Source: Atriophallophorus winterbourni (Eukaryota > Platyhelminthes > Trematoda > Plagiorchiida > Microphallidae). Taken from it: 64,000 nt of DNA. This document shows, piece after piece, positions 10,741 through 44,807 of the stretch. The notes below the pieces were generated by a model, which was not told the origin of the DNA, ran no database searches, and worked only from the letters and a program-made list of their open reading frames with translations. The translations under genes were made by a program, and so were the position numbers. Each line of letters begins with the position of its first letter. Positions within the stretch are counted from its first letter, which is position 1. The stretch covers positions 45,800 to 109,799 of the forward strand of contig JACCGJ010000335.1 in the NCBI GenBank assembly GCA_013407085.1, in the 5' to 3' direction.

Positions 10741-10745
10741 GCCGA

Positions 10746-13377: not shown

Positions 13378-13436
13378 CCCGCCTGCATGTGAATCCAAAA
13401 CAGAAGTCATACGACAGCCAAGCTCAAATGGGGAGT

Positions 13437-13960: not shown

Positions 13961-13964
13961 AAGA

Positions 13965-14170
13965 GTTCTTCACAAGGTTTTTTCATTATATTCTTTGGTA
14001 TACTTGCTGTTGAGCAAGAGTACTCTGCATTTCGAAGCATTCAGTGGAATTTCGTTGTCTAGGGACCAGGTGTAAATTATATCGAGATCCCGTTGCAGTT
14101 TCTGCGTGTCGGCTGTGGAGTTTATTTTGCGCCAAGTCTTTGCGTCATCCGCAAAAATAAGCACCGACTA
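13965..14170 (-). mobile_element. CR1-like LINE RT fragment (copy A)
   Basis: 64-codon minus-strand segment starting LIFADDAKTWRKINS, with the RT active-site FADD and the PLNASKCRVLLL motif. It is the same family as the plus-strand RT at 15398-15610, giving an inverted pair about 1.2 kb apart. Confidence 0.8.
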
Positions 14171-14195
14171 CTGCGCTAGAATAGGCAAGTCGTTT

Positions 14196-14228
14196 ATATA
14201 TATATATATATATTATATATATAAATAA
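14196..14228 (+). repeat. TA microsatellite (copy A)
   Basis: About 30 bp of alternating TA. The copy B equivalent (38977-39043) is about twice as long and interrupted. Confidence 0.9.
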
Positions 14229-14469
14229 AAACAAAAGCGGTCCAAGGAGTTATCCTGATTGGACACCCCGGGCAGCTATCCCACGCACCATCTCAAAACG
14301 CAAAATCCACTCTTCATTGAACCTACAAGCTAGCAACGGTACTTGAATAACTACAAACGGCGAACGATCACTCTCTATAGACCTCGGTCTGCAAAGTAAC
14401 ACTCGATGGATTTTCACTGTTGCCGATGTCAAAACCTTTATCTTTGTAGCCGATTTCCTGCCACACTTT

Positions 14470-15828: not shown

Positions 15829-16300
15829 AGGCGTAGAACGCTCCGTCACTTATTAACACACCTCAAGGATAAAACCCATTCGGGCTGCGCGACGAATTGC
15901 GTATATAAAAGCAACTGCAAGGGTTTCTCTGGAGTATATATCGGGCAAACATCCAGATAACTCAGTACTAGGATATGTGAACACATAAATCGAATCGGTA
16001 AGCAGCCACTCAATTCCAGTGAATATCAATCACCGATTAGAGATTCAGCACTAGCTGAACACGTGTTTTTACAAAGGTCACGCGTTGATCTTGATAAGGT
16101 GGAAGTGATAAGGCGGGGAATAAACAATACATAGAAAGACTTCTCGCTGAGGCGGTTAAGATAACAAAGGCTGGTATGAATACAGTCAATAAAGTGGATG
16201 AGGCTGATATCTCCACAATCTGGCGTCTGGTTCTGCAGAGGATAAACATTAACGTGCGTGACCCCCTATTTTGCACACCGAGTACACAATCGAGCTAATC
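15829..16300 (+). mobile_element. Penelope-like element: GIY-YIG endonuclease fragment (copy A)
   Basis: Reads LRHLLTHLKDK...CATNCVYKSNCKGFSGVYIGQTSR, where VYIGQT is the YIG half of a GIY-YIG nuclease in the style of Penelope-like elements. After a stop it continues as RICEHINRIGK, ALAEHVF and a FLQRSRVDLDKVEVI tail. Penelope-like elements carry this endonuclease C-terminal to their RT; no Penelope RT precedes it here, the upstream RT being LINE type. A hammerhead-like motif follows about 210 bp downstream. Confidence 0.75.
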
Positions 16301-16507
16301 GGTCACCTGATGTCATTCCCACCGGCCAAGACAAAAATATTTGAGGGATTATGCGGCACGTAGGGGTGGTGGTGCTTTAGTTGATATTGATCACGCCTGT
16401 CCATCTTAACTGGCGCAGATTCCACTATTGACCGTGCAGTTCTTAATCAGCTTAGGATTGGTCAGGTAAATTAAACTTATGCTTACTATACGTTCGTACT
16501 GACTCCC

Positions 16508-16549
16508 TTGGTCTGACGAAGTTTCTGAGTCATAAGCAAAACGTTACCA
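16508..16549 (+). ncRNA. Degenerate hammerhead-like motif downstream of Penelope-like EN (copy A)
   Basis: CTGACGA, a GTTT/AAGC stem with loop, AAAA in place of GAAA, then a CG-closed minimal helix III with GTT as the cleavage triplet. TGGT before the core pairs with ACCA after it as helix I. Penelope-like elements are known to carry type I hammerheads in their terminal repeats, which supports the reading. The core changes suggest it is inactive. Confidence 0.42.
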
Positions 16550-16679
16550 TTTAACTGCTCTCACCGATTCATTACAAACTTTCTGTTTCATGATTATGAT
16601 CCCCTGATCTGTCACGAACATTTTCCATACATTGATTGAAGGACGTGATTCGACGTGATATTGATTTCTCTCATTTGAA

Positions 16680-19400
16680 CTGTGGTTGAAATGGTTTGAC
16701 TAGTGATGCAAGTTGCATATTCTCTCATGCTGAATACAGATGAATGAATCGTCGCTAAATCTTCAGCATTTTCTGATGCAGTTGTTGTTAGTCCAGCTGA
16801 CGTGACATGAACGCAACTCCAGGTTATACCTTAGCTTGATCGTTAACAATGCGATAAAGTATTTCGGGGTTGAGCTTTATCATGCGAGATATTTCTTCTT
16901 TGAAGTAAAAATTGTCTTGGATGAAATTTTTTTTACTTTGTTCCCCAGAAAAAAGAATGTTTCCCATGTTTATGATGATGGGTTTTGCCGATGGTGATTA
17001 CAAGCAGTTTCGTACTTTTGACCACGAGTTCGGGTTATTAGTTTAAATTCGAGGTTTTTTCTTGATTTCCTGAGGGCAAATTCGGAGCTCAGGTCGATTG
17101 AATTATAGAGATTAGATATCAGCCATAGCCAAAACTCATGTACGTTGCAAGTTTTCGGTTGGCAGTTAATTATGATTTTATGACAATAACTCAAAGTCAT
17201 GATGTTGATAAATCTAACTGTTTTACGGCCATAATTTGTCTTACATCTTCCAACAGATAGTCAAACTAGATCTCGATGTGATGACTTAGTCAAAGTGGAC
17301 TTTTGTAAGAAACGTTATCAATGTCGTGTTCATTGCTTGCCAGAACAAGATCTAAGAGTGAAAGCAAATTGGGTCTGACATGGAATGTGGTTATTAAGAG
17401 GAATTTTGTTCAAAAATTCACCGAATACGCGTTGCAGAGAGTGTTTTGGGTGAATGGAATTACTCTGCATATTCGGTAAATTGAAGTTACATAAATTAAA
17501 TATTCAGAAGTGAATCTGGAAGTACCATGCAAATTCCGTCGAGTAAGGCAATATTGTAAGTTTTTTGTGCAGACGGTGGGCGATATACTATTCCAAAACA
17601 CACTCTTTGCCGTTATCTAATCGTACTGAGCACCAGAGTGTATCCTGTAACACTATGTCCGGATAGGTAATCTCACGGCACAGAAGGTTTTGGTCATAAT
17701 ACAAAGCTAATCCTCATCTCATTTCACTGTCATGGCGAATAAGTGACATTCTAGTTCACTATTTGTTTGGTGAGTATGTAGCCACTTTTCCATTACGGCG
17801 ATGATGTCTGGTGAACATTAAAGCAACACTGCACGCACTTCACTGATTTTGTTTCCGAGTCATTGTGCGTTGGTGTAGATGCACTTCATAGTTGTTATTC
17901 TCAACAAGGATGAGGTGGGGGAAGGAGGCTAGCGGAGTGCAGAATATCTGTTAGGCCGACTCGTCCAGAGTCGGCATCTAAAGGAGTTTTGCTTGCAAGG
18001 ATGCCTGATCGTTTTGAGGTTGTACAATTGGAATACAGTGATCTATAGTATCGACTGAATTTGCTTCTGGCTCGTCAATTACTAATTAACTTGGTGGTGA
18101 TTCTATTGGACTTTGTGGTGCATCTATCTGTCCAATATGAAGTTTCGATCCGCTTGGTCTAATTTCTAGTGGCATTAGTCTGCAGCCATTTTCTCAACGA
18201 ATTTGGACCTGTTCAACATATCTTTACTCAAGAACGTTATCTTAAGGGGCTTAGGACCGATGACATAAAAATTCGTAGATTTGGGGATGCTGGAAGTGTT
18301 CGCACAGCTACTTCATGTAAGCCAAGTATATCACCGAGGAATCTCCATTGTTGTTGATCTTGATTGCGCCGCACCGCTTTATGAGTTGCTTCTTCTGCTT
18401 TTTGACTCTCAAATGGATTAAAATTTGATTATCTCACTGCTTTGTTTGGGCTTGTGCTGAGCGTTTCTGTCCCCTTTCCACCAGGGCACATCAGCGAAGA
18501 TCCTTGAAGTTGTCTCCGAACGATGCATCCCAGGAAATGAGCGGATAGTATGATGTTATCTAGATCCCTTTCAGAGTTGACCGTGATTTTAACCACTCTT
18601 GGCTGGTCAACAATTGATAAAGCATTTTTACGATTCAGTCGTATCATTGATTGTGTTTCAACTGTCTCTAACTCCATGCTGCTGCAAAACATTCTCCATT
18701 CTTCTTTATAGTGCTTTATCTTGTCCCCAATTAAGTTGGCACTCATTACCTCTACGTTAGTGCAAATGACGCTTAGTCCACAGATAGAATTTTGTCTGTC
18801 GCTTTTGTTGGTTGCGAGACGTTTCAACTTCCTTAGATTGAATAGCAATCGTGTCCACTTTAGGAATATTTTGCATCGTGACATTTGGTTTTGAACATTA
18901 GGGTTTTCGCTGAACCTGCAAGCGATCATGTGGCTTTGTCTCCGTAAATTGTTGCAAGCCAGGGAAGTTTTGTGCACACAGGCCATTAACAGTCACATTT
19001 TTAACTGTGGCATCTTCATAAAAAGAACACACTTCAAAACTCTCCGGCACATTTGCAACATCTGAACCTTCGTGTTGAATGATCTGCAAGTATGGAGCTT
19101 TTATCTAAAAGGTATTATCGTAAATGGTTTTCGATTTATTGAAACCTATACGGGCAAACGAGAATTCTGAGTGGTGACGAGAGTCTCTACTGACGACTTC
19201 AACGTTGGTATCCGATCATTTAGGTTGCCTTGCTGGACACTTGTTCCTCCAGCAAAATCTGCGTTAGGTTTAGTACGACAAATTTACACACGTAGCATAG
19301 ACAAGGTATGGTTTCATCATTCAAGATCTATATCACATCTGCGGTCAATGATTTGTTATATTGATCATGCTTAGCATGCCTTGGAAATCCAAGAATAAAA
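16680..19400 (-). mobile_element. CR1-like LINE ORF1 and endonuclease remnant (copy A)
   Basis: On the minus strand, 19380-18429 encodes an ORF1-like protein. It has a PHD-like cysteine tail (IPCLCYVC), a basic middle and a C-terminal RVVKITVNSERDLDNIILSAHFL segment whose pattern recurs in the LINE at 56.8 kb. About 17830-17400 encodes the APE endonuclease start (SPDIIAVMEKW) and VYRPP-like motif. 17200-16970 is the linker. Many stops. The duplication ends at 19452, just upstream of this ORF1. Confidence 0.72.
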
Positions 19401-19452
19401 CATTTATTTATTTATATATTGCACATGTTTAGGCACGTGTATAAATCGTTGA

Positions 19453-19769
19453 GACACGTGACAGATTTGACCTTAGCACTGACGACTTCATTTAGGCGAA
19501 GCATGGTTAACGAACACGTGATCGTTTCATGTTAACCGGGCCAACAAATATTACAAATCAAAGCACAAAAATCGATACGTACGCGGTCGGTTTTTGTGTG
19601 GTATTGAGTGGAGCTTACGAGAAGTGACGAGTTGTAAAAAATTTCGTTACCCGATTCAGCCTCCAAATAAGAATGATAGTGTTGAGTATTTCTCCGAGTA
19701 GTTCCCGACATCGGTAAACAACGATTGGTTGATCTAACAGCTGAAACAAAAAAGCGATTTCTGTGAAAA
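19453..19769. other. No gene seen
   Basis: Sequence unique to copy A's right flank. CACGTG-containing stretches occur at 19457 and 19516. Probably the 5' part of the RTE-like element that follows, but no coding evidence is seen. Confidence 0.5.
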
Positions 19770-21115
19770 TAATAGGGGTATCAGTCTCATTCAAGTAGCT
19801 CCTACATCCTGCTTCACCGGTTGAGTACCAAACAGAAAAAGCAAATCCGCGAGGAGCAAACTGGGTTTCGTGCTGATCGGGGATGTACAGATTAAATCTT
19901 CACACGCTGTCAGTTACAGAAGCAACACCTCCCATATTGTAGGCCAAATATCGTGGTATTCCTTGACATCAGAGCAGCGTTCGATTCAATCGATCGCGAA
20001 AGTCTTTGGAACTGTCTGCTGAGACATGGAGTGATCGAGAAGTATGTTCGGATAATAAAAGAATTTTAGCTCCAAACCTCAGGCATGGTTCCAGCGTACG
20101 GAAAAAATGACGTCCTTGTTCACTATCTCCAGTGGGAGCAGCAGGGCAACCCTATCTCGCCGTTCCGTTTTAACATCGTGATCGACGATGTCCTCAGGAA
20201 ACCTTTAGCTGGTCTGACGGGCGCAGGTTTTGAAATTCTGCCGTGTGAGAGCCACCGATCTACAGTGTGCGGATGACATCGCACTTCTCGGAGATGATCC
20301 TCATATAATTCAACAAGCTCTAGACCGTCTGGAACGTGAAGCTTCGAGGTATGGCATGTGCTTTGCGCCTAACAATTGTAAAAAACTTGCGCAGGACTGG
20401 AGCGGCTCTCTTACAAATCTAACCGTGAGTGATGTCAATCTTAAATTGGTAGATAGCAATTTTTACGTTGCCAGTTGTATCTCTTTTGACGATCGTGTCG
20501 AGGGCGAGATCTCACGTGTTTGCAAAGCGGGTGTAACGTTTGTTAAACTTCGCCATTTTTGAGGTCGGCGCGATGTTTAACTCCCTACTAAAAGCCGAGT
20601 GTACAACACAGTGGTGTGATACACTACTTTATGGCTGCCGAACCTGGTCTATCCGAGAGTAAAACGTCCGTTAGTTTTCTGTTTTTGACACATGTTGTCT
20701 GCGTAGGATTCCTCGCATTCGGTGGCAGCATCGCGTTACAAATATAGATGTCTGCAAGCGTGTGTTAGGACCTGGTGGCCACGGAGTGAGAGATTTGCTG
20801 ATGCTTGCTCGTTTGCGGTGGTTGGGACATGTTTTAAAATGTCTCCTCACCGTTTACCGTACCGTGCCTTATTCGCAGAGCCTTGCAAAAGCTGGGAGAA
20901 ACGATTGGGTGGTCTGTCCATGACGTGGCGCTTTGGGATAAAGAAACTCACGGAAGGTCTAGGCTCAGTTGGGCGTATTCGTTTGCCTGGGTGGGGTCCA
21001 AGAGCTCCACTTAATAGTTGGCTGGAAACCTTACGAGATATGGCTGCAAACCGAAGGCAGTGGCGCCAGTGTATTTAATAATGTGCCCTCAACTTTTGTC
21101 CGGCATATTATAATA
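19770..21115 (+). mobile_element. RTE-like LINE reverse transcriptase remnant
   Basis: VVFLDIRAAFDSIDRESLWN (palm motif A), QQGNPISPFRFNIVIDDVL (motif B), then after a frameshift CADDIALLGDDPH (degenerate YADD) and KLVDSNFYVASCI. The C-terminal part has LLYGCRTWSIRE, RRI-R-RWQHRVTN, LRWLGHVLKMSPHRLPYRAL and ends ETLRDMAANRRQWRQC, then stop. Interrupted by stops and frameshifts. A second copy of its 3' end lies at 23410-23510. Confidence 0.82.
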
Positions 21116-23689: not shown

Positions 23690-23960
23690 CACGATGATGA
23701 TGATGACACTATCATCGCTTTAGATTTAGCGAGGAAGTCACTCATCTCAGATATGATCTTTAAGGATCGTACAAACTTGACTGTACAAAAAATTATCAAC
23801 GCTGTAACAACTTGTCTAAAGATGTACCATTTAGTTAATGGACAGCTATACAAACAAAACGATGGTTTAGTGATGGGTCCGACTATTTCCCCGGCGCTAG
23901 CGAATATGTACATGGGACATTTCGAAGAAATAGCTTTGAAAAACGAAGCCTTCTTCTTTT
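23690..23960 (+). mobile_element. Penelope-like element RT fragment
   Basis: About 85 codons without a break, containing SLISDMIFKDRTNLTV, VNGQLYKQNDGLVMG and ISPALANMYMGHFEEIAL. The GL-MG--ISP-LAN--M-HFE pattern is the Penelope-like RT signature. The 5' and 3' parts are absent. It shows that a Penelope-like family, a possible mobiliser of the hammerhead repeats, exists in this genome. Confidence 0.82.
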
Positions 23961-29700: not shown

Positions 29701-32700
29701 TTTTTATATATCATTTTTGACCTTGACAACTAAATTTTAGTTAACAGCGTCACCCTGGTTGAAGTTCCTCCGATCCGACTTCGCAAAGTGAACTTTCACT
29801 GAAGTGAACGGCTTGAATTCGCATTCAATAGGTGGATTATTATGCTCGGCGAGGAAAGCTTGTTATGAAAGCGGCAGTCGTGTTGATGTCATCCCGCTCG
29901 CTTACCAACATTGATTGAACACGTGTGGTAATCGAGGAATAGGCAACTCATGACATCGCTTGGAACGACACCAACGAAGGCCGTTATCTAAGCGAATTGC
30001 ACATTGCAAACAGGAATTCATGCTCAAAACTTCTGTTATCTCCGCTGAAGTAGCAGATCAAAAAGCGCAACTATTTTGCGTGTACTTTTTGCAGATTCTT
30101 AGTCACATTTAATCATTGTGAAAATGCGAGAATCAAACGTTATTAACACTATCAATTAGCATGCTTGAAGCTAGTTGCATTAGTAAGTTAGGGAAGCGTT
30201 AGTATTATATGCACACGTTATTCACAAGTATTTCATTAGTTGAAAATAAACTTACTTTGAAAAATGGATGCAGCAAATTTTGTTCCTCACCGTATGTTAT
30301 TCCAGTGACCACGACGTACGTCAATAACTTATATTTATCCTAAGGCTATTTTATACCGGGAATCGCAACAAGTCTTACTGTCCTGCCGTAGTAAATTGTC
30401 GTTTTCTCGGCTTCCAAATGAGCCTTGAAATTCGGATGTGCTTTGCGTCTGACATAGTCCTCGTCTGCGAACGGAAGTTCTGGATCATCCTTTTATCGTA
30501 TTAATTAGGATTAAGGGGTGAATTTTACCTCATCTGGAAGCAATGACCTTGCCCATGTTAAAACACTTGATAGTAGGATAAAGATTTTCTGTTTGGGAAG
30601 GTTTTCGATGTTGTCATGCAACCGCTCCAGCATCCACATGGCTTCCTCAATTTGAGATGCATCATCTTTTATATTGTAAATGATATAATCACACGTGATC
30701 AGTTGGTTATATAGATCTTTCCTCTTTTCACACTGTATAGAAATGGAATACAATGAGTGAGATTTTAAATCGAGTCATATAACATGCATATATTATGCAA
30801 TAAATTCTGTTATAAAAAACATTTTGATACTTCATCTTCCAAGATGCGCGTAGAATTTAAATCCATTCACTATAAGACACAGATGATTAAAAAACCATTT
30901 ATTGTTGATGAGATTATATAGATGATGAATAACTACGATTATGAAATTACTGTTAAATCAAATATATGCTTACTTTTAAAAATAACGCAACTCACAAATT
31001 GTCAACGAAAATTCTGCTCGCATATACATTAAAAGTATATGCAACACTGAGACCAGAGGATTTGGATTTTAGTCACTCTATTAAAAGGTTTTCGAACCTC
31101 AAACTGGGTAATCCAAAAACGTTTATTTCCGCATTGAAATTATCGTTTGTTTTTTGAACAAATACCAGGCACAAACAAACTAAGAGAAAACATCCTTGTT
31201 TGAAGCTTCGGAAGGTTCCAGAAGCTCCTAATATGCAGTGTTAGAGTGGGTTGAATCTTCTGTACCAGAGTGGAGAGACAGAGGTTTTGAATAGATTTGG
31301 AGAGCAGCATGAAACTTAAGAAATTTGATGACCCCTCCCTACTAACGTAATCAAAATCTACAAATTATTTTTTCAAATCAAAACTTCTCTTGAATGTTTC
31401 ACAGAAAACGATGTCATTATACATACCATGAAATTTAAAATTATTCACTGCTTTTGAATACCGTTGATTTTTGTCCAGTAGCCATTTGCACGGGCCTCAC
31501 AGTGGCAAAGCAAAAATAACGTTTGACTTTCAATCAAGTGGTTCAAGTTCAAATCCAGCTGGGTTACACGTTTCTAGAAATATTTTCAGCACAGATCCAC
31601 ATTATAAGCAGGTGTAAAATGAATACCAACGTCGGGTAAGGTTGGTACGACCAACCTGTTCAATCACATGAATACCCACTCAAGTAGACTGGGTTTAAAA
31701 CTCATGATCATGAATATAAAAGATCATTTGCATGCATCTCCATCACACACACCCCACGACCGGTTTCGTGCTGTTTGCACTCATCAGGTAGGGACAGTAG
31801 GATCAGGATCCGCATGCGCTTAAAACAGTGGAAAAATGGTAAACAAGTTATATTCATGGTCATGGGTTTTAAACCCAGTCTACATGAGTGGGGACTCATG
31901 TGATTGAACAGGTTGGTCGGACCAACCTTACCCAACAGTGGCATACAAGCTCAACTTGTTAACCATTGTTTCACTGTTTCAAGGGCATGCGGATCTTGAT
32001 CCAACTGTCCCTATCGGATGAGTGCAAACAGCACGAAACCGGTCGTGGTGTGTGTGTGTGATGGAGATGCATGCAAATGAGCTTTTATATTGAATACCAA
32101 CGTCATTTGGGAAAACAAACACATTGTCAAATTGGTGAAACTATAATGACAATACGCTTCATGCTAAAGGAACCGAAGACAAAATAAGAAATAAAAAATC
32201 ATTTTTGGAATGCCTAAAAGTCTGTTGCATATCGTTAGTATGTATTTGAAACAATAATAGGCACGGGATATTACCTTGCATAATGCCACTTGTAATAAAA
32301 ACAGTCATTAACACAACATCAGTGTCAGCTTACACTTTATCCGATGGAAAATCTGATGTGGCATTCAGATCAATGGCTCACATATTTGTTCAAGTCTTTC
32401 ACGACTAGCCCAACATATAATGCAACGCAAAGGGCCAATTCAAATAGGAACACTAAATGCTTCGTCATGATCAGGCAAAGGTGAACGCATATCTAAGCCG
32501 TAAGACGTGGGACTACAATCATGAAAATCGGGGGTTTGAGTATCACCAAAGGCAGAGGATATGCACCGCTAATGAGCTCAAATAAGAGCGAAACTAGAGT
32601 ACAGTGCTTTGTCGTGACCAAATTTGTGAATATTCCAAAGGATCGGATACTTCCTTTCCGATCACCGAAGTAATGGTGACAGATCTATATTTAACGGCAG

Positions 32701-33430
32701 ACTTGAGTCTCCACCTTTGAACATAGGATTGATGACACCACATTTTTAGTCCTACAGACAGCATTACATCGGTAGTATGCACCGAATGCACAAAGGTAAA
32801 GTCAAAATAGCATTAATAATCTTCAGCATGGCAGGGTACCAAGCCAACGATAAATGACACATTATTTTTCAACAAATCAATGCGATCATAAATTTTTAAA
32901 AGCACTGAGCATAAATATCTGGGGAATTCACCGAATATATATGAATTATCTTACAAGCTGGAAATAAATCTCGATTTATCCAAAACATATTGGCGACTAA
33001 CTCTTTCTAAGTTCAAAAAGAGTCACAACTGTGATTTAAAACAGAAATAATTTCTATCTCGAATAAATTTCATTATGCATATAAATCTTTCAGATAAAAC
33101 GACATGAACAGATTTTAACGCGTTTAAATGTATTACCTTGAAGACATCTTCCAGAAATGCAGGTTTTATGGATGAATCAGCACTGAGTGACCCAAAAACC
33201 TTGTACCTCGTGCCAATTTTATTTTGAACTAACTCATCTTCAGCTTCCTCCATTTGTTCACTATCATCTTTGGGAACTGCGCTTCCAATAAGTGTTTCAG
33301 AGAGTTTCTTATAAAAAGTCAGCATTCAAATAACTTTACTAACCTTACTGATATGATAATTATCATATTGATCAACATTAGCAATGAAAATGCGATCTCT
33401 TATTGGATTATCTGCAGATAATGGATTCAT
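26714..33430 (-). CDS. AK7: Adenylate kinase 7 homologue, copy B, exons 1-8 (3' incomplete)
   Basis: Exons, 5' to 3': 33344-33430, 33137-33307, 30529-30732, 30379-30489, 30256-30327, 28839-28924, 26868-26958 and 26714-26791. All have GT-AG borders and compatible phases, giving 900 bp of open frame. Exons 7-8 carry KHYIIAKDESQNTLAELLK and ISQSLSTGKLRSVDREEAF, matching the end of the AK7 SDR-like domain. Differences from copy A are mostly single substitutions: Ser to Cys at the exon 3 start, Ile to Leu, Leu to Val, Met to Ile. No kinase-domain exon (P-loop) is seen between 26714 and the N gap at 25425. The copy is therefore either 3' truncated or continues into unresolved sequence. Intron 2 contains a hammerhead element inserted after the duplication. 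Confidence 0.92.
26959..27664. other. AK7 intron 6, copy B, unassigned part
   Basis: AT-rich intron. 27220-27480 is more GC-rich, with CCAATCA and ATTGGT elements, but no coding or repeat identity is clear. Confidence 0.45.
27665..28330 (-). mobile_element. CR1-like LINE 3' fragment (copy B, AK7 intron 6)
   Basis: On the minus strand: YRQASRLLVIFRRKFGRFSLVKLLRLMNIYL with RPILKY, then a C-terminal ADSRI/SFGIPYLNSP...FKAKLDLYI segment. It is the same family as the 53.6-57.4 kb LINE and as window positions 1-330. Truncated at both ends with frame breaks. Confidence 0.78.
28925..30255. other. AK7 intron 5, copy B
   Basis: Counterpart of 985-2331. No gene beyond the tRNA-like remnant at 29308-29359. 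Confidence 0.7.
29308..29359 (+). repeat. tRNA-like SINE remnant (copy B)
   Basis: Counterpart of 1379-1438 with the TGTTCAC segment deleted, so GAGTGCGC runs straight into TCGGAGG. It is a decayed copy in AK7 intron 5. Confidence 0.3.
31328..31588 (+). repeat. Copy-B-only segment with tRNA-like promoter boxes
   Basis: Absent from copy A, where position 3412 joins the equivalent of 31589. At 31504 there is an A-box-like TGGCAAAGC, and 43 bp later a B box AGTTCAAATCC (31547-31557), the tRNA spacing. A 5-bp anticodon-type stem with loop CTTTCAA (TTC anticodon position) lies between them. The T stem is weak, so this is more likely a SINE head than a functional tRNA. It could also be a deletion in A. 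Confidence 0.5.
31752..31793 (-). ncRNA. Hammerhead ribozyme, type I, complete core
   Basis: On the minus strand: CCCTAC, CTGATGA, stem II GTGC-AAACA-GCAC, GAAA, then ACCGGT forming a minimal helix III, C as the cleavage base (GTC), and GTGGGG. Helix I pairs CCCTAC with GTGGGG (six pairs, one U-G). Every conserved core position is present. Hammerheads with such a short helix III usually act as dimers. It lies on the AK7 sense strand. Confidence 0.88.
32009..32050 (+). ncRNA. Hammerhead ribozyme, core-mutated partner
   Basis: CCCTAT, CGGATGA (CTGATGA with U4 changed to G), GTGC-AAACA-GCAC, GAAA, ACCGGTC, GTGGTG. The U4 change hits an essential core base, so cleavage is unlikely. Confidence 0.82.
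32640..32905 (-). mobile_element. LINE fragment at the copy B deletion junction
   Basis: Matches 7874-8130. The left junction has about 15 bp of filler (AAAGGATCGGATACT) between sequences equivalent to 4010 and 7874. Part of the filler is the reverse complement of the adjoining TTTCCGATC. Confidence 0.7.
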
Positions 33431-33629
33431 TTTAATTTTAATTTTTCAAATGTGTACATGTGTTTTCATGACAACGACCTTCTTTTGGGTTAACTTCAAG
33501 TACAAGTTATCAGAAGTTATTAGAAGTCAATTAATAACTGAGACGAGATTGATAAACTCATTCATATACTTTCATTCTTATTTATGAAAGTTTAAATTAT
33601 TTGGCGAATACATTTTTCTGATGAAAATT

Positions 33630-33938
33630 TGTAGTGGATACTGAGGCTTCGTGGGTTCCAGTTATATCCACATACAATTTCGACTCCGAAACAACCACTG
33701 AAGAAGAAAGCATGCAAGTGGACGGAAGTATATTGTAATTATTAAGTGAGTTGATTATGTACAACACGTATTCAACAGATGAACATCGTTCACTGAGTTA
33801 ACTAGCAGAAAATAGGTGAAATGTGAGCGATAACGATAAAGGGAAATCGAGAAATCAATATGACGTAATCGGCAATCGAAACGAAACGCTAATGTCTGAG
33901 TTCACATATTAAGATGATACAAAATATAACACTGTACA
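33630..33938 (-). mobile_element. CsRn1-like Gypsy 3' LTR (copy B)
   Basis: Counterpart of 8850-9158, again ending about 200 bp upstream of the AK7 ATG (33430) on the same strand. Confidence 0.78.
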
Positions 33939-33966
33939 AATGACTATAGAATTCCCTTACGACTAG

Positions 33967-34686
33967 AACGTTTTTGTCCGTGGGGGTCGGGTATTTTGAG
34001 ACACGAAGGTAATGGTGGTTTATCAGGGTAATCAGGGGTATGGTTGGTTTCTAGTGAAGCGCATGAAGAATCGCGTTTGTCTCGGTTTGACTTCTGTGGA
34101 GTAATTTTTCAGGTATTTGGTTTCGCTTCCGATGTTGGTTTTATGTTAGCGACTTTTAAACAAAAGTTAATGACGGTTTCTTTTGATCCATTCCGGTCTA
34201 TAACGAAATGGGATGCTTGCTGAGCACTTGTACGGACCAGTGTATGGAAGTTGAAGTGATCCGCGTACATGATCAGCACGCACAAACACAAGTCACAGGT
34301 AGAGATGTCGGCTGGGATGTAGAACGGTTGAGCGTGTTGGCGAGTTGGGATAGCTCGTAATGATTTCATAATGCTGTGAAGGCGAATGACATATTGTGGA
34401 GCTGGAAGATCTTATGATGAATGGGAAGATGTCAGGAATTCGTCAGGTTGGTTGAATGTACTCCCGTACACCATCTCAGTAGCTGAGCAACCCAGATCGT
34501 CTTTCACGGTGGTACTAATACCAAGAAGCACCAATGGCATTGACTCGGACCAACGTTTTGAATTCCCGTGACTCATGATCGCGGCTTTGATTTGCCGGTG
34601 AAATCTTTCAACTGATTTATTTGAAGAAGGATGGTAGGCTGTAGTCTGTATGTGCTTCGTACCGATTGTTCTATTGAATCCCCGAA
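33967..34686 (-). pseudogene. CsRn1-like integrase, C-terminal half (copy B)
   Basis: Counterpart of 9187-9906; by eye identical in sequence. Confidence 0.78.
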
Positions 34687-37600
34687 TGTTAGGAGGGCAC
34701 GCTCTGTTGTATAGACAATGAACGAACTATCGATTAATCGACCAATCAAGATCGATGGTGAGTTCCAATTGTGATTTTTGCTCACTGTGATATTCACACA
34801 TGTGCTCACTTGTGATACTCTTTGCATTCGGTGAATAGACGTGTTGAGTGACGGTTGTGTTATCTCTGACCACACGGCAGGGCCAACAATAGTACAGCAC
34901 AGACATAAATACTTGGCGACGTGGTGTTTCCAATCATGTCCGCTGAATCCGAAGTGTTTGTTTTACAAAAGTTGCTCGAACCACTACTCTAGATAAAAGA
35001 AGCAAATTCTTCTGCGAATGACCCCAAATCTCCATCTATCGAATCTCTCATGTCATCCATAATGGAATTTCACTTCGTCTAGGAAAATAATGTGATTTTC
35101 GACACGTGGTTCCGGCGTTATGAAGATATATTCCGAATAGACCTCAAGGACCTGGGAGATTACTGCAAAGTTCGAATGCTGTTGCGTAAATTAGGTGCAC
35201 CGGAATTAGACAAATATTGCAATTTAACTCTTCCTCAGAACCCACGTGACCGTCCATTCGAAGAGATAACCGAATCGCTCAAGCAATGTTTTGGTGATCA
35301 ATCATCTTTATTCAGTATTCGTTACCGCTGTCTTAATTTCGTCATGAATGAAACAACTGATTTTGTGACACATATCGGAGATGTTAATAGAGAGTGTGAA
35401 CGCTTCAAATTGCGCTCACTGACTGACGATCAATTTAAATTTCTCATTTTTATCAGCAGTCTGCGATGCTCGCAGATGGCCTTGGATATTGTTGGAAGAC
35501 TAGGCAAAGTTGACTTTGAAGCCGAATGCGAACTCCACGTTTTGACCAAACGCCCTGTACCGTACGCTCTTTTGGGAAGCGTCAACAAAAACTTGTCAGA
35601 CTGCAAGCTGCCGGAGTAATCAGACCCGTCAACTACTCAGCATGGGCAGCACCAATTGTGATTGTCAAAAAACCGAATGATAGTCTGAGAGTTTGTGCAG
35701 ATTATTCGACTGGTCTCAATGCATCCTTGGCAGATCATCAATACCCACTACCTTTCCCTGAGGATCTCTTCGCCAGATTAAATGGTGGTCAGCGTTTTGC
35801 AAACTGGTCCTATAGGAAGCTTATCTTCAGATTGAGGTCACTGGAGAATCAAGAGAGCTATTAACCATCAACACTCACCATGGGCTCTTCGAGTACCAAC
35901 GCTTGCCGTTTGGTGTCAAGACTGCACCTGCTATCTTCCAACAGATCATGGATACCGTGCTCCAAGGTTTACCCTATGCTGCTGCCTATCTCGACGATAT
36001 AATTATATAAATGTAGATGAACTACATGATCGTATAAAGGAAGTTCTCAAACGCGTAAACAAATATGGCTTCCGTTTACAGGGCCCAAAAATGTGAATTT
36101 TTCATGGAGTCTATTAGATATCTCCGATTTATCATTAATCATCATGGTCGACCCTCGGACCCATCAAACATTGATGCAATTCAGAATATGCCAACTCCAC
36201 ATGATACCCAAACATTGCGATCATTCATCGGGTTGGTCAGCCACTATGGCGAATTTTCAACATCAATGCACAAATTACGCGGCCCTCTCAATAATCTACT
36301 GAAGAAGGATGTTCCTTGGATATAGTCAGAAGAGACCCAACAAGCTTTCGAGATGATGACGTCAATGCTGACTTCACACCTATTACTGACACATAACGAC
36401 CCAAGGCTCCCAAGCATTCTAGCCTCGGACGCTTCCAGCTACGGTATTGGTGCAGTTATCTCACATGTCTTCAAGGATGGAACCGAGAAAGCCATTGCTC
36501 ACGCAGTACGATCACTCACCTCAGCTAAACGGAATTACAGCCAAATCGAGAAAGAGGCGCTCGCCATCATCTTCGCGGTCAAGAAATTTCATAAGATCCT
36601 ATACGGCTGGAAATTCACACTGCTGACAGACAATAAACCGTTGCTTGCTATTTTGCATCAAAAAGGGCATTCCTGTCTACACAGCAAACAGGCTACAGCG
36701 ATGGTCAACCATCCTGCTGGGCTATAATTTCGACATAAAGTACATCTCCACCGGGAAAATCGGACAAGCGGATGCACTCTCAAGACTGATAACAGAAAAC
36801 ACTATAGAAGAAGACATGGTAGCCCAAACAACTCTGGATGCTGACATCAGTTGTTTACTTTCCACCACCATGATGAAACTGCCGGTAACAGTTGACCAAA
36901 TTCGAGATGCAACATTAGAAGACCCCGTACTCCAAAAGGTATTTGAATACCATAAATCCAGATGGCCAGTATCTGTACAAGACCCAGAACTACAACAATT
37001 CCGACATCGTCAGAATTCCCTTTCAATCGTGGACGGGTGTCTCATGTTTTCGGATAGAGTGGTAATTCCAAAGAAACTCCGTTCGACAGTACTCAAACAA
37101 TTCCACACAAGTCATCCCGGGATAAATCGTATGAAGGCGCTAGCGCGCAGCTTCGTTTACTGGCCCCTTATGGATTCACACATTGAGAACCTGGTTAGAT
37201 CGTGTTCTAAATGTCAATCGGCATTAAAATCACCGACAAAGTGTGAACCACACTCATGGCCCAATCCCACCGAACCCTGGTCAAGAATTCACTTGGATAT
37301 CGCGGGCCCACTGAACGGAATATCGTATCTCCTACTGGTGGACTCACACAGCAAATGGCCAGAGATTTTCCCCCTCACCAACACAACAACTCGGACGACA
37401 ATCAAAAAGCTGCAAGAAACTTTCGCTAGATTTGGTTATCCAAAGACATTGGTGACCGATAATGGAAGCCAATTTACGTCGAATGAGTTCGGCTCATTTT
37501 GCCGACAACATGGTATGAAGCACATCCGCACACCACCATATCACCCACAATCGAACGGACAAGTGGAGAGGTTTGTGGACACTTTCAAGCGAGCAATGCT

Positions 37601-38440
37601 CAAAGCAGCGGGGGAAGGGAATACGGAAGACGTTCTGCAGAATGTTTTGATGTTCTACCGAATCACACCTAATCCTAATGTACCTGGAGCCATATCACCT
37701 ACGAAGTCATGCTAAGGCAAACACCGAAAACCATCTTCGATCTCATGCGTCCAAATACGGTGGAGCATACCGATAAAAATATTGGAATGGATCCCAATAC
37801 AATATACATAATGGTGCAAAACCCCGTAAATTTATGGTCAGACAAAATGTCCTCGCCAAGGATTACCGTGGTGATTAGATGAAATGGACCGCAGGGATCG
37901 TTAGCAAGATCGTGGGCCACGTTTGTTACGAGATAATGGTTGGAAAAGAAACATGGGTACGACATGCAAACCAACTAAGGGCGTCAGGTGCAAAATGGAA
38001 TTCTCCAAGTATGCAGGAAACTCCATTGGAAATCCTACTGGGTGAATTCAACCTCAAGAGCCCAGAAAAGAGAAAGCCAATGGGAGAAGATCCCCTCGAA
38101 TTAATTCACCGGAATGCAGACAAAGAAGACGGACAGATCGAATACGTGTTCCAGTAACCCGCCTGCATGTGAATCCAAAACAGAAGTCATACGACAGCCA
38201 AGCTCAAATGGGGAGTTGTTAGAAGGGCATCCTCTGTCGTACAGACAGTGAACGAACTATCGATTAATCGACCAATCAAGATCGATTGTGAGTTTCAACT
38301 GTGATTTTTACTCACTGTGATCTTCGCACACTTGATCACTTGTGATAATCTTTGCATTCGGTGAATAGACGAGTTGAGTGACGGTTGTGTTATTTCTGAT
38401 CACACGGAGGGGCCAACAATAGTACAGCACAGACATAACA
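34687..38440 (+). mobile_element. Nested Gypsy LTR retrotransposon (copy B)
   Basis: Counterpart of 9907-13660 with the same stops, frameshifts and flanking pentamers. LTRs at 34687-34907 and 38217-38440, gag remnant 34936-35520, RT 35526-36325, RNase H/integrase 36353-37715, integrase C-terminus 37879-38157. By eye the differences from copy A cluster in 36845-37540 (about a dozen, for instance LDIAGP against LDFAGP beside the first catalytic Asp). The rest looks identical. Confidence 0.9.
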
Positions 38441-38740
38441 CCAAAAAAGTGATGACTGAAATTGGGAACCTGTGTCAGTGTTAATAGTGTTTGGTACACT
38501 AAAGTTGCTGATCCAATGTTGAACGAAACAATCGATTGGAATAGGTTTGGGACCGATCATGTATTCATAATGCAAGGAAATTTGAGTGCAATCGGTTAGA
38601 GTGGTTTTTGGGTAACGTGTCACTTCTGACACAGAAGCTTTGTCAGACCAAGTGTGATAGTCAGGACAGGGAACATGACTAAGTAGCATTCGACCCACAA
38701 CCAATTTGAAAATGTATGATTACCCAGCTCAGTGCTGGAT
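38441..38740 (-). pseudogene. CsRn1-like integrase, N-terminal part of the core (copy B)
   Basis: Counterpart of 13661-13960, with the same VPNTINTDTGSQF motif. Confidence 0.75.
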
Positions 38741-38744
38741 AAGA

Positions 38745-38950
38745 GTTCTTCACAAGGTTTTTTCATTATATTCTTTGGTATACTTGCTGTTGAGCAAGAG
38801 TACTCTGCATTTCGAAGCATTCAGTGGAATTTCGTTGTCTAGGGACCAGGTGTAAATTATATCGAGATCCCGTTGCAGTTTCTGCGTGTCGGCTGTGGAG
38901 TTTATTTTGCGCCAAGTCTTTGCGTCATCCGCAAAAATAAGCACCGACTA
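38745..38950 (-). mobile_element. CR1-like LINE RT fragment (copy B)
   Basis: Counterpart of 13965-14170, with FADDAK and PLNASKC motifs. Confidence 0.8.
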
Positions 38951-38976
38951 CTGCGCTAGAATAGGCAAGTCGTTTA

Positions 38977-39043
38977 TATATATGATATATATATATATAT
39001 AGATTATATATATAATCGAATATAATAGAGATATATAATTAAA
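38977..39043 (+). repeat. TA microsatellite (copy B)
   Basis: Interrupted TATA/GATATA tract, about 35 bp longer than in copy A. It accounts for the change of duplicate offset from 24780 to about 24815. Confidence 0.85.
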
Positions 39044-39283
39044 AACAAAAGCGGTCCAAGGAGTTATCCTGATGGGACACCCCGGGCAGCTATCCCACGC
39101 ACCATCTCAAAACGCAAAATCCACTCTTCATTGAACCTACAAGCTAGCAACGGTACTTGAATAACTACAAACGGCGAACGATCACTCTCTATAGACCTCG
39201 GTCTGCAAAGTAACACTCGATGGATTTTCACTGTTGCCGATGTCAAAACCTTTATCTTTGTAGCCGATTTCCTGCCACACTTT

Positions 39284-40642
39284 AATCTTTCAGCCAACAT
39301 GAGTACACGAAAACTCATTAACAATGTCACAAACATGAACGCCATGATTCATTTGTGTAATCAAACCATACAAACTATTCGAGTTCTGATTGCGATACTG
39401 CACGAAATTAAGCTTCTCTCATTAGGGAATCTTCGGATATCTTCAAACCCTTTGTACACGACACTCTTAGGATGCATGATTCATGGACATTCTTTAAACT
39501 CTGACTGCTGCAACCTGCCAATTCTACACTGGGTGGAATGTCACTCCAACGTTGTTCAAACAAAATTATGACGATGAAGAAAATACGTTCACCCAGTATA
39601 GATAATATACACCTAAACATTTTGTATAATCTTTCTTCCCAGTTGGCTATGCTGACGTCAGACGTGTTCACCATAATGTTTGAGCAGAGCTTTGTGCCAG
39701 AAACTTGGAAAGCTGCCCTGATTAGTTCCATCCACAAGGATGGTGGGAAAAAATCCATTAAACTATCGTCCGATAGCTTTATTACCAGTGCTATGAAAAG
39801 TACTGGAGTCCATCATAGCTGATGCATCGCGGAATCACTTTGAGAATAATATTTCAATATCCGAAGCACAGCATGGATTCAGGAAAAAACGATGTTGTCT
39901 GACAAACTTGCTGTTCACAAAAGAAGTTTGGTCTGAGCTACTTGATGCCGGCAACTCCGCGGACGTGATTTATATCCATTTCTTAAAAGCTTTCGATCGT
40001 GTCAATCACCAAATACTTTCGTCGAAAATACTCACCTACGGAGTACAGGGTACACTCCATGCATCAATTAAAGATTGGTTGATATCTTTTGAGATGTACG
40101 TGAGATTCAAGAATTTACTATCCGAGTCGATTATAGTTGCCTGTTGTAACCCACAAGGAATTGTCCTCGGACAGGTTTTATTTTAAATATATATAAGCGA
40201 CGCCTACACTTGTGCAGTCGTCGGTGCTTATTTTCGTGGATGACGCTAAGTTTCGGCGCCAGATAAACTCCACAGCCGAAATGCAGAACCTGCAACGGGA
40301 TCTTGATATGATTTACAGCTGGTCCCTAGACATTGAAATGCCACTGAATGCATCGAGATGCAGCCTATTGTCGCTAAAAAAGCCATTGGAGAAAATATAT
40401 TTGTCTAGGTCGTACTGTTATTAAACCTGAAATCCTCCGAAAAAGATTTAAGCGTGATCATCCAAACTGATTTAGGAAACTCAACGAAATGTCGAGTCGC
40501 TGCCAGCAAAGCCGAAAGTAACTTGGGCATGATTTTAAGAGTCTTAGGTTAGTTTGACCCCAACATTGTTTGCAAATTGATATCAACCCACATCCGTCCT
40601 CATATAGAATATGCTAATGCAAGTATACGAGTAACGTATACA
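39284..40642 (+). mobile_element. CR1-like LINE reverse transcriptase remnant (copy B)
   Basis: Counterpart of 14470-15828. A few substitutions, including YIHFLKAFDRVNH in place of YIDFLKAFDRVNH, i.e. loss of the first catalytic Asp of RT motif A in copy B. Confidence 0.82.
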
Positions 40643-41115
40643 AGGCGTAGAACGCTCCGTCACTTATTAACACACCTCAAGGATAAAACACCTTCGGGCT
40701 GCGCGACGAATTGCGTATATAAAAGCAACTGCAAGGGTTTCTCTGGAGTATATATCGGGCAAACATCCAGATAACTCAGTACTAGGATATGTGAACACAT
40801 AAATCGAATCGGTAAGCAGCCACTCAATTCCAGTGAATATCAATCACCGATTAGAGATTCAGCACTAGCTGAACACGTGTTTTTACAAAGGTCACGCGTT
40901 GATCTTGATAAGGTGGAAGTGATAGGGCGGGGAATAAACAATACATAGAACGACTTCTCGCTGAGGCGGTTAGGATAACAAAGGCTGGTATGAATACAGT
41001 CAATAAAGTGGATGAGGCTGATATCTCCACAATCTGGCGTCTGGTTCTGCAGAGGATAAACATTAACGTGCGTGACCACCTAGTTTGCACACCGAGTACA
41101 CAATCGAGCTAATCG
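40643..41115 (+). mobile_element. Penelope-like GIY-YIG endonuclease fragment (copy B)
   Basis: Counterpart of 15829-16300; KDKTPSGCATNCVYK and VYIGQTSR are preserved. Confidence 0.75.
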
Positions 41116-41321
41116 GTCACCTGATGTCATTCCCACCGGCCAAGACAAAAATATTTGAGGGATTATGCGGCACGTAGGGGTGTTGGTGCTTCAGTTGATA
41201 TTGATCACGCCTGTTCATCTTAACTGGCGCAGATTCCACTATTGACCGTGCAGTTCTTAATCAGCTTAGGATTGGTCAGGTAAATTAAATTTATGCTTAC
41301 TATATGTTCGTACTGACTCCC

Positions 41322-41363
41322 TTGGTCTGACGAAGTTTCTGAGTCATAAGCAAAACGCTACCA
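41322..41363 (+). ncRNA. Degenerate hammerhead-like motif (copy B)
   Basis: Counterpart of 16508-16549. Here AAAACGCTACC replaces AAAACGTTACC, which destroys the GTT triplet. Confidence 0.35.
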
Positions 41364-41494
41364 TTTAACTGCTCTCACCGATTCATTACAAACTTTCTGT
41401 TTCATGATAATGATCCCCTGATCTGTCACGAACATTTTCCATGACATTCATTGAAGGACGTGATTCGACGTGATATTGATTTCTCTCATTTGAA

Positions 41495-44216
41495 CTGTGG
41501 TTGAAATGGTTTGACTAGTGATGCAAGTTGCATATTCTCTCATGCTGAATACAGATGAATAAATCGTCGCTAAATCTTCAGCATTTTCTGATGCAGTTGT
41601 TGTTAGTCCAGCTGACGTGACATGAACGCAACTCCAGGTTATACCTTAGCTTGATCGTTAACAATACGATAAAGTATTTCGGGGTTGAGCTTCATCATGC
41701 GTGATATTTCTTCTTTGAAGTAAAAATTGTCTTGGATGAAAATGTTTTTTACTTTGTTCCCCAGAAAAAAGAATGTTTCCCATGTTTATGATGATGGGTT
41801 TTGCCGATGGTGATTACAAGCAGTTTCGTACTTTTGACCACGAGTTCGGGTTATTAGTTTAGATTCGAGGTTTTTTCTTGATTTCCTGAGGGCAAATTCG
41901 GAGCTCATGTCGATTGAATTATAGAGAGTAGATATCAGCCATAGCCAAAACTCATGTACGTTGCAAGTTTTCGGTTGACAGTTAATTATGATTTTATGAT
42001 AATAACTCAAAGCCATGATGTTGATAAGTCTAACTGTTTTACGGCCATAATTTGTCTTACATCTTCAAACAGATAGTCAAACTAGATCTCGATGTGATGA
42101 CTTAGTCAAAGTGGACTTTTGTAAGAAACGTTATCAATGTCGTGTTCATTGCTTGCCAGAACAATATCTAAGAGTGAAAGCAAATTGGGTCTGGCATGGA
42201 ATGTGGTTATTAAAAGGAATTTTGTTCAAAAATTCACCGAATACGCGTTCCAGAGAGTGTTTTGGGTGAATGGAATTACTCTGCATATTCGGTAAATTGA
42301 AGTTACATAAATTAAATATTCAGAAGTGAATCTGGAAGTACCATGCAAATTCCGTCGAGTAAGGCAATATTGTAAGTTTTTTGTGCAGACGGTGGGCGAT
42401 ATACTATTCCAAAACACACTCTTTGCCGTTATCTAATCGTACTGAGCACCAGAGTGTATCCTGTAACACTATGTCCGGATAGGTAATCTCACGGCACAGA
42501 AGGTTTTGGTCATAATACAAAGCTAATCCTCATCTCATTTCACTGTCATGGCGAATAAGTGACATTCTAGTTCACTATTTGTTTGGTGAGTATGTAGCCA
42601 CTTTTCCATTACGGCGATGATGTCTGGTGAACATTAAAGCAACACTGCACGCACTTCACTGATTTTGTTTCCGAGTCATTGTGCGTTGGTGTAGATGCAC
42701 TTCATAGTTGTTATTCTCAACAAGGATGAGGTGGGGGAAGGAGGCTAGCGGAGTGCAGAATATCTGTTAGGCCGACTCGTCCAGAGTCGGCATCTAAAGG
42801 AGTTTTGCTTGCAAGGATGCCTGATCGTTTTGAGGTTGTACAATTGGAATACAGTGATCTATAGTATCGACTGAATTTGCTTCTGGCTCGTCAATTACTG
42901 ATTAACTTGGTGGTGTTTCTTTCGGACTTTGTGGTGCATCTATCTGTCCAATATGAAGTTTCGATCCGCTTGGTCTAATTTCTAGTGGCATTAGTCTGCA
43001 GCCATTTTCTCAACGAATTTGGACCTGTTCAACATATCTTTACTCAAGAACGTTATCTTAAGGGGCTTAGGACCGATGACATAAAAATTCGTAGATTTGG
43101 GGATGCTGGAAGTGTTCGCACAGCTACTTCATGTAAGCCAAGTATATCACCGAGGAATCTCCATTGTTGTTGATCTTGATTGCGCCGCACCGCTTTATGA
43201 GTTGCTTCTTCTGCTTTTTGACTCTCAAATGGATTAAAATTTGATTATCTCACTGCTTTGTTTGGGCTTGTGCTGAGCGTTTCTGTCCCCTTTCCACCAG
43301 GGCACATCAGCGAAGATCCTTGAAGTTGTCTCCGAACGATGCATCCCAGGAAATGAGCGGATAGTATGATGTTATCTAGATCCCTTTCAGAGTTGACCGT
43401 GATTTTAACCACTCTTGGCTGGTCAACAATTGATAAAGCATTTTTACGATTCAGTCGTATCATTGATTGTGTTTCAACTGTCTCTAACTCCATGCTGCTG
43501 CAAAACATTCTCCATTCTTCTTTATAGTGCTTTATCTTGTCCCCAATTAAGGTGGCACTCGTTACCTCCACGTTGGTGCAAATGACGCTTAGTCCACAGA
43601 TAGACTTTATGTCTGTCGCTTTTGTTGGTTGCGAGACGTTTCAACTTCCTTAGATTGAATAGCAATCGTGTCCACTTTAGGAATATTTTGCATCGTGACA
43701 TTTGGTTTTGAACATTAGGGTTTTCGCTGAACCTGCAAGCGATGATGTGGCTTTGTCTCCGTTAATTGTTGCAAGCCAGGGAAGTTTTGTGCACACAGGC
43801 CATTAACAGTCACATTTTTAACTGTGGCATCTTCATAAAAAGAACACACTTCAAAACTCTCCGGCACATTTGCAACATCTGAACCTTCGTGTTGAATGAT
43901 CTGCAAGTATGGAGCTTTTATCTAAAAGGTATTATCGTAAATGGTTTTCGATTTATTGAAACCTATACGGGCAAACGAGAATTCTGAGTGGTGACGAGAG
44001 TCTCTACTGACGACTTCAACGTTGGTATCCGATCATTTAGGTTGCCTTGCTAGACACTTGTTCCTCCAGCAAAATCTGCGTTAGGTTTAGTACGACAAAT
44101 TTACACACGTAGCATAGACAAGGTATGGTTTCATCATTCAAGATCTATATCACATCCGCGGTCAATGATTTGTTATATTGATCATGCTTAGCATGCCTTG
44201 GAAATCCAAGAATAAA
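41495..44216 (-). mobile_element. CR1-like LINE ORF1 and endonuclease remnant (copy B)
   Basis: Counterpart of 16680-19400. The ORF1 open frame is shorter here (43571-43245) because of small indels near 43600. Confidence 0.72.
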
Positions 44217-44268
44217 ACATTTATTTATTTATATATTGCACATGTTTAGGCACGTGTATAAATCGTTG

Positions 44269-44807
44269 ATTCAAGATTCAAGATTCAAGAATTTATGGTC
44301 ACAAAAAGCACATAGCTTCACAATTACCATATCATAGAAAATATACATTCAGGAAATAGGTATAAAATAATCATGTAATGTCAAGTATAGTCAAGTTGTA
44401 TAGTTACCATGAATCAATACGCAGGTGTCGTCAAATCGGTATGCAACAAATAAGTATCCAAATTTCGAATAAACGTTCCGATGCTGGGAGAGATGACAAG
44501 AGTTTCGGGTAGGGAATTCCAAAGGAAACAGACACGTACACAATAAAAATATCGGCGACCGCTGATACGGGAGTGGGGAATTTGTAGTGTCGCTGAGTGG
44601 CTGCGTGTATGACGTGACTCACGGTATTCGAATAAATGTTTTAAGGGATGATGTGGGGTATTTAATATTTTGTATGTTAGTATCACATCGCTTTGAAAGC
44701 TTCTTCGAAGGGGAGTGGGGAGCCTCAGTTTTTGCAATCGTTCCTCGATCGTCAGTTTCCCGAAAACCTCTTACGATTTTGATTGCGCGATGGTATAATT
44801 TGTCAAT
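44269..44807 (-). mobile_element. CR1-like LINE 3' fragment with tail repeats
   Basis: On the minus strand: DKLYHRAIKIVRGF, LRLPTPLRRSFQSDVILTYK, RISGRRYFYCVRVCFLWNSL and SIGTFIRNLDTYLLH, the RT C-terminal end. It closes with a (TTCAAGA) tail repeat at 44269-44290. The tail abuts the right end of duplication copy B, and the 5' side abuts a hammerhead repeat at 44808. Confidence 0.82.

Follow-up and report, generated by a model that had tools for sequence, protein, structure and literature searches.

Head-to-head arms of a hammerhead retrozyme as a recurrent insertion outcome, probably produced by a Penelope-type enzyme

Background

Penelope-like elements (PLEs) are candidate movers of the animal retrozymes (PMC7229834 and PMC7761336, as far as their accessible text goes), and according to the available part of a 2020 review no conserved motif in animal retrozymes betrays the machinery mobilising them (PMC7761336). 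A hammerhead of the axolotl, whose helix III is comparable to that of the elements described here, showed poor activity alone and was far more efficient as a dimer (accessible portion of PMC7229834). In rotifer Penelope elements the head-to-head arrangement is the commonest one and has been attributed to self-priming; one of the inverted pLTRs optionally carries a tail of 31 bp, and the target repeats comprise 8-10 bp (PMC3846280, available sections). The protein of an anole PLE cleaves and extends both target strands in vitro. Synthesis begins within the RNA at two neighbouring positions, mainly at an AC-rich stem-loop, the tail being the stretch between these positions; the start sites are the same on both strands, and cleavage by the ribozyme is unnecessary (PMC11167929, in those parts of the text that are accessible). 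No report of inverted retrozymes was found in the open-access literature searched: the available portions of PMC8490949, PMC12910113, PMC4918200, and PMC11722881 contain nothing on them, and the word "inverted" is absent from the main text of PMC7229834.

Results and discussion

A head-to-head insert and its empty site

The window, that is the whole 64-kb stretch of DNA that was analysed, contains a non-coding insert of 458 bp with the following features (positions are those of the window; "reference" denotes the 237-bp monomer L023).

31621 to 31633, no strand: left target-site duplication GAATACCAACGTC, by direct sequence comparison
31634 to 32091, no strand: whole insert, two retrozyme arms joined head-to-head, by family matches, inverted repeats, and monomer mapping
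31634 to 31849, minus strand: left arm (S, H) of 218 nt, covering reference 20 to 237, 93% identical to L023
31848 to 31849, no strand: inner junction, reference 20 joined to 152, arms overlapping by 2 bp
31848 to 32091, plus strand: right arm (S', H') of 244 nt, running from reference 152 through one full circuit to 158, 91% identical to L023
32092 to 32104, no strand: right target-site duplication GAATACCAACGTC, by direct sequence comparison
3450 to 3462, no strand: empty site GAATACCAGCATC in the paralogous segment, a single copy with 2/13 bases different

The original prediction, made from the window alone, had proposed a mobile retrozyme-like insertion of this length between identical 13-bp repeats, with a single target in duplicate A. 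The repeats are indeed identical over 13 bp, or over 14 bp when the T preceding both is included, and the target is present once at the predicted place. Its two mismatches are expected because the neighbouring duplicate blocks around the insert and the empty site are only 88-93% identical; further to the right the identity rises to 98.7-99.3%. The insertion is thus younger than the split of the duplicates, provided that the segments are duplicates and not joined haplotypes. The segments at 7872-19452 and 32653-44269 form a segmental duplicate of 98.7-99.3% identity beside the 88-93% blocks, a stretch of N separating the copies. Alternatively, the scaffold may have joined two haplotypes, and the empty site would then be allelic.

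The predicted block order S-H-S'-H' emerges from three inverted repeats: 31744-31849 with 31953-32058 (I1, 91% complementary), 31620-31719 with 31848-31947 (I2, 89%), and 31713-31752 with 32052-32091 (I3, 98%). As a single strand the insert is predicted to fold with -281.8 kcal/mol (z -27), and 0 of 100 shuffled sequences fold equally well. No open frame of at least 120 aa overlaps the insert, and neither a reverse transcriptase (RT) nor a GIY-YIG endonuclease is encoded; the insert is therefore not itself a Penelope-like element.

Each arm contains one hammerhead.

31752 to 31793, minus strand: type I hammerhead with intact core, helix III with an A-U pair and a CCGG loop (RF00163, 32.9 bits, E 4.3e-6)
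32009 to 32050, plus strand: degenerate type I hammerhead, core CGGATGA (RF00163, 17.5 bits, E 0.53)

Both score below the Rfam gathering score of 34 for RF00163, and the gathering-level Rfam scan of the 64-kb window found no hammerhead, whereas five members of this family elsewhere in the genome reach the threshold (L057-L059, L061, and L063). Cleavage of the minus-strand hammerhead is predicted between 31758 and 31757, a position which we place by motif. The plus-strand hammerhead reads CGGATGA in place of the core CUGAUGA, the changed base being presumably the conserved U4. Because of this alteration only the minus-strand hammerhead looks intact. Thus, two hammerheads on opposite strands are present as predicted, both being matched by RF00163, but the further claim of a ribozyme in the transcript of either strand is weak, the plus-strand core being mutated. 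It is also weakened by the helix III type, which has been published as poorly active alone, and by the geometry, as an inverted pair has one hammerhead per strand and no same-strand dimer. Matches to MIR172, snoR99, SNORA50, and snoU13 in the same search are far under the respective gathering scores and were regarded as chance.

Two hammerhead families in one genome

The genome searched comprises 537 Mb in 15840 contigs. With the insert as query at least 174 matches were obtained from the best 40 of 5740 candidates scored, and with one hammerhead unit at least 40 matches from the best 40 of 1519 candidates scored. A search for further S-H-S'-H' copies, suggested together with the original prediction, yielded several full-length ones at 80-88% identity. 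RF00163 gave 32 matches in the genome, 27 of them above the cut-off, which divide into 5 of family 1 and 22 of family 2.

Family 1, to which the insert belongs, is an abundant group of retrozymes. Its type I hammerhead has a helix III of just one A-U pair with a CCGG cap, and its monomer measures 237 bp (L023); in the long direct arrays L033-L035 the monomer has about 233 bp. The fetched family-1 loci were mapped onto the L023 monomer (positions 1-237). After removal of duplicates 73 clusters were distinguished, 41 in single orientation and 32 with a strand change. In the 24 focal clusters, a sample found by one hammerhead unit and thus not picked for inversion, six are inverted; L015, L017, and L021 were left out of this sample as too short or at a contig end. 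The duplicate loci L005, L009, L029, L072, L075, L076, and L090 were left out of the polarity, junction, arm, and collinearity counts, and clusters with less than 150 matched bases out of the target-repeat and polarity tally. The count of end positions additionally omits L026, the long arrays L033-L035 and L066, and the contig-end copies L017 and L057. The window itself holds a further family-1 copy.

59797 to 60189, minus strand: family-1 copy in single orientation with its 3' end close to site B (defined below), 84% identical to the reference

Seven further family-1 fragments lie in the window within 49678-53162 and 58132-60189.

Family 2 also has a hammerhead but is distinct from family 1; its monomer measures 422 bp, and it comprises 22 loci (L039-L056, L060, L062, L065, and L068; L064 was removed as a duplicate of L065). 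It carries a B-box-like stretch, GGTTCGAGTCC, and ARAGORN found no tRNA in the loci L053, L045, and L039. By its type I hammerhead and B-box-like stretch we take it to be reminiscent of the schistosome hammerhead SINE Sm-alpha. Fragments of family 2 are found in the window at 32318-32347, 32501-32609, 3690-3715, and 3856-4009.

The original prediction had proposed to tabulate the lengths of the target duplications. Exact target repeats of at least 9 bp (range 9-14) are found at 18/80 clusters, duplicates included, compared to 9/588 mismatched pairings. Such exact repeats of 9-14 bp flank 11 of the 32 inverted clusters, although in L088 the repeat resembles element sequence.

Strand changes have a prevailing polarity

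In family 1, with duplicates removed, the strand changes from minus to plus (head-to-head) in 32 cases and from plus to minus in two, many of these loci having been picked with the inverted element itself as query. Restricted to family-1 loci that were found with one hammerhead unit or with RF00163, the count is 9 to 0 for head-to-head, and family 2 gives 7 to 0, so that the fetched loci of both families that were not picked for inversion amount to 16 to 0 (p 3e-5). All fetched loci of both families together show 39 head-to-head cases versus 2. Pieces more than 35 bp apart are uncounted in the 34 family-1 junctions, for example L020, which is plus then minus over a distance of 92 bp. A coordinate table built with a single-orientation query, covering contigs that were not fetched and pieces within 60 bp, contains eight head-to-head pairs and one tail-to-tail pair:

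Head-to-head: C9553, C4438, C8064, C419, C10241, C15336, C11346, and C1025
Tail-to-tail: C3992

The original prediction had itself named a local inversion or an assembly join as the alternative, should all other copies be direct; instead, dozens of inverted relatives exist. The assembly is split into many contigs, which would favour erroneous joins. However, an inversion after insertion or a join would generate both polarities, contrary to the 16 to 0 and 8 to 1 just given, and exact target repeats of at least 9 bp flank 11/32 of the inverted clusters. This explanation therefore has very little probability.

Outer ends are start-type ends

The ends of the copies were compared with two intervals of the reference, site A (15-45) and site B (140-166), which were chosen after inspecting the inverted copies. 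In 33 single-orientation clusters the 3' end is at A or B in 24 cases, with 24% expected, and the 5' end in only 4. In the 29 two-part inverted clusters 51 of the 58 outer ends fall into these two intervals, where the 3' ends of single copies lie. Inverted copies thus carry start-type ends on both sides and lack a free 5' end; the 5' sides of both arms meet inside the insert. In addition, the two arms tend to use different sites. In the strict set of 23 copies, which omits nine of the 32 junctions (gap of more than 15 bp or identity below 78%), 16 copies combine an A end with a B end (8.9 expected, p 2e-4), two are B/B, and none is A/A. All 32 inverted copies comprise 19 A/B, 4 B/B, 1 A/A, and 8 other combinations. 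The insert of the window is an exception in this respect, because its right arm ends at reference 158, within site B, and its left arm at 237, which fits neither A nor B. Such mixed A/B ends are not predicted by the anole study, because there the start sites are equal between the strands and ribozyme cleavage is dispensable. In family 2 the 3' ends of single-orientation copies cluster around the origin of the monomer (11/14 between 407 and 7). Its seven inverted copies have their 14 outer ends at 415-422, 2-14, or 22-36 of 422. Some arms reach 22-36 and are thus about 30 nt longer. These extensions, like the mixed A/B ends of family 1, recall the tail that one of two inverted pLTRs may carry in Penelope elements (PMC3846280).

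Inverted arms between target repeats would also be produced by a fold-back or TIR DNA transposon. However, the ends of the insert, GGGTAAGGTT... and AATATAAAAG..., are not inverted repeats of each other, and with 41/73 clusters in single orientation and scattered 5' ends the family does not behave like such a transposon, which was rejected for the missing terminal inverted repeats and whose probability is practically nil.

Inner junctions differ between copies

The reference positions joined at the centre vary by copy, being 20|152 in the window and 150|10, 23|150, 110|57, 157|23, and others elsewhere. Therefore, duplicates apart, the inverted copies arose repeatedly and not as one lineage. 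Because the inner junctions differ, and because direct and inverted copies share their 3' ends, the inverted pair is a recurrent insertion outcome and not the element's own form. This is where we depart from the original prediction, which had regarded the inverted dimer as the form of the element itself. Several full-length S-H-S'-H' matches at 80-88% do resemble what a stable inverted-dimer replicon moving as a unit would leave behind. However, besides the differing junctions and the single-orientation copies with the same 3' ends, a dimer of this kind has one hammerhead per strand, and the few shared junctions appear to be segmental duplicates (L003/L005, L028/L029, and L071/L072/L075/L076). 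Such a replicon is thus highly improbable.

At the junctions of the strict set the arms overlap by -13 (a gap) to 9 bases, so that few bases are shared. The two junction coordinates are mirror-related, their sum being near 174 of 237 (R 0.78 versus 0.19 for shuffled pairs, 23 strict cases). This sum holds in most inverted copies, including those with outer ends outside A and B. The family-1 monomer is strongly self-paired in the predicted fold; that the junctions track the paired arms of the RNA fold was not adopted, because the strongest pairing axis is at 190-196 and the sum at about 174. Plain end-joining does not predict mirror-related coordinates.

In twin priming of L1 the 5' part becomes inverted and target repeats are made. 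If a LINE had moved the retrozymes in this way, with the second primer annealing within the same RNA, the same polarity and target repeats would be obtained, and the two parts should be collinear, which they are in 11 of the 23 strict copies. However, shuffled pairings already give 9.5 collinear cases of 23 (p 0.30), and twin priming should scatter the outer ends of inverted parts, while 51 of 58 outer ends fall on two sites. Twin priming is therefore an unlikely explanation.

Arm differences favour two templates

Whether the arms were copied from one template is reflected in their differences. The 28 arm pairs compared (the other four of the 32 share fewer than 60 positions) differ at 503 of 3505 shared positions (14.4%); the mismatch rate of consecutive units within one arm is 8.9%, and that of random copies 15.8%. 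The result rests on a test of diagnostic differences, those in which both states are common elsewhere; it replaced a less rigorous comparison with the best other match. Between arms 72 diagnostic differences were observed. One template would be expected to yield 18.5 +- 3.9, or 30.1 +- 4.5 if transition and CpG bias are allowed for; the worst case is 48.9 +- 6.0. In 14 of the 28 pairs p is individually below 0.05, and the arms of the insert in the window show three diagnostic differences versus 0.39 expected (p 0.003). Per 100 positions there are 2.05 diagnostic differences between arms, 1.63 between consecutive units, and 4.86 between random pairs. As judged from these sequences, the two templates of one insert would thus tend to be related, the arms being nearer to consecutive units than to random pairs, and both could belong to the same multimeric RNA as two of its units.

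This bears on self-priming, in which a single cDNA or antisense RNA folds back and copies itself, and which has been proposed for the same head-to-head geometry in rotifer Penelope (available text of PMC3846280). The mirror-related junctions, the strongly self-paired monomer, and the nearness of the arms to consecutive units fit this proposal. However, the arms should then be identical at birth, and the inherited differences exceed even the worst case; they should also share their end site, and 16 of the 23 strict pairs end at both A and B. The arm differences therefore argue against fold-back copying of a single template, which we regard as improbable.

Matches to Penelope-type machinery in the genome

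An RT peptide from 23708-23950 of the window has at least 150 matches in the genome (the best 150 of 3182 candidates scored), several of them in tandem about 2.75 kb apart and with frames of up to 878 codons. The RT adjoining L023 found 34 relatives; one Schistosoma mattheei protein matches with 49% identity over 43% of the query. By their motifs we take both RTs to be of the Penelope type. Direct tandems of Penelope-type RTs with a period of about 2.75 kb are seen on C7100 at 14316-20064 and on other contigs. The GIY-YIG endonuclease has 17 matches at E <=0.001 and at least 150 at E up to 10. Among the matches listed for RT and for GIY-YIG the only shared contig is C1461, where a GIY-YIG match (24.0 bits, E 0.02) is located 600 bp downstream of a same-strand RT match. 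An endonuclease within the RT arrays would thus be hypothetical.

The GIY-YIG matches also occur in opposite-strand pairs. Among those listed, nine of the nine pairs within 2 kb are minus-then-plus, seven of them with a spacing of 557-558 bp and hence non-independent, and among the RT matches listed two pairs within 5 kb (C7379 and C11328) are likewise minus-then-plus. The head-to-head GIY-YIG pairs with 557-558 bp spacing are on C13518 (two places), C3257, C11857, C11839, C13450, and C3643. They may all go back to one inverted element that was copied or duplicated as a whole.

A proposed course of insertion

Taken together, we consider it probable (about two in three) that the insert results from a single integration event of a non-autonomous hammerhead retrozyme, in which both cut strands primed cDNA via a Penelope-type enzyme and the products were then joined. 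A Penelope-like RT, supplied in trans, would cut both target strands with a stagger of about 13 bp. From each of the 3' ends thus freed, cDNA would be primed at an internal start site of a retrozyme RNA, which could be multimeric or circular. The two cDNAs, made on two retrozyme templates, would be joined end to end, and filling in the stagger would generate the 13-bp target repeats. A more specific version, two-ended target-primed reverse transcription in which an RT dimer extends both strands, each with a separate RNA and start site, and the joining occurs at mirror-related positions, is tentative and in our estimate falls somewhat short of an even chance. That a Penelope enzyme moves family 1 is suggested by the anatomy of the copies, by co-occurrence in the genome, and by the literature.

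The product would presumably be a dead end, each strand carrying one hammerhead of a type that acts poorly alone, inside a long hairpin. The insert in the window can therefore probably not seed new copies through ribozyme-made circles. As a single locus it is ordinary; as a clean example of a recurrent event it is informative as a class. Comparison with its dozens of relatives suggests Penelope-type enzymes as movers of such elements, so that the anatomy of the insertion itself, in two hammerhead families of one genome, would carry the signature of the machinery. It also bears on the question of why Penelope elements insert head-to-head, for which the arms favour two templates over self-priming. 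If true, the two-ended reading would account for the head-to-head signature of Penelope in general, replace self-priming, and name the enzyme that moves animal retrozymes.

Comparison with known systems

The closest described systems are the metazoan non-LTR retrozymes, with which family 1 shares the type I hammerhead (below the gathering score in the insert, above it in five relatives), a monomer within 170-400 bp, target repeats of more than 4 bp (13 bp at the insert), and direct tandems (available text of PMC7229834). Their GC content is given there as below 50% in the text and below 45% in the legend of Figure 1; it is 0.448 in the insert and 0.464 in the L023 monomer. The helix III of HHR_Amex1, one pair with a palindromic tetraloop, resembles that of family 1 (same source, accessible part). 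Linear and circular RNAs of monomer size are a further trait of these retrozymes and would be expected of family 1 as well. The insert differs from these retrozymes in being an inverted pair with its arms on opposite strands, and the original prediction was right to set this layout apart from the direct tandems described for animals. From L1 twin priming family 1 differs by outer ends at two sites on both sides, and its collinear cases (11 versus 9.5 of 23 in shuffled pairings) show no clear excess.

With endonuclease-bearing PLEs (PMC3846280 and PMC11167929, in their accessible parts) family 1 shares the head-to-head inverted 5' part and a tail that one of the arms may carry. Short target repeats, partial tandems, and internal start sites are likewise common to PLEs and the retrozyme copies, and the extension of both target strands by PLEs in vitro is what we liken to the inverted insertion of retrozymes (same sources and parts). 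The tail-like extension would measure about 107 nt in family 1 (from B to A) and about 30 nt in family 2, compared to the 31 bp of the rotifer elements (PMC3846280, available sections). PLEs encode a protein, whereas the insert codes for none.
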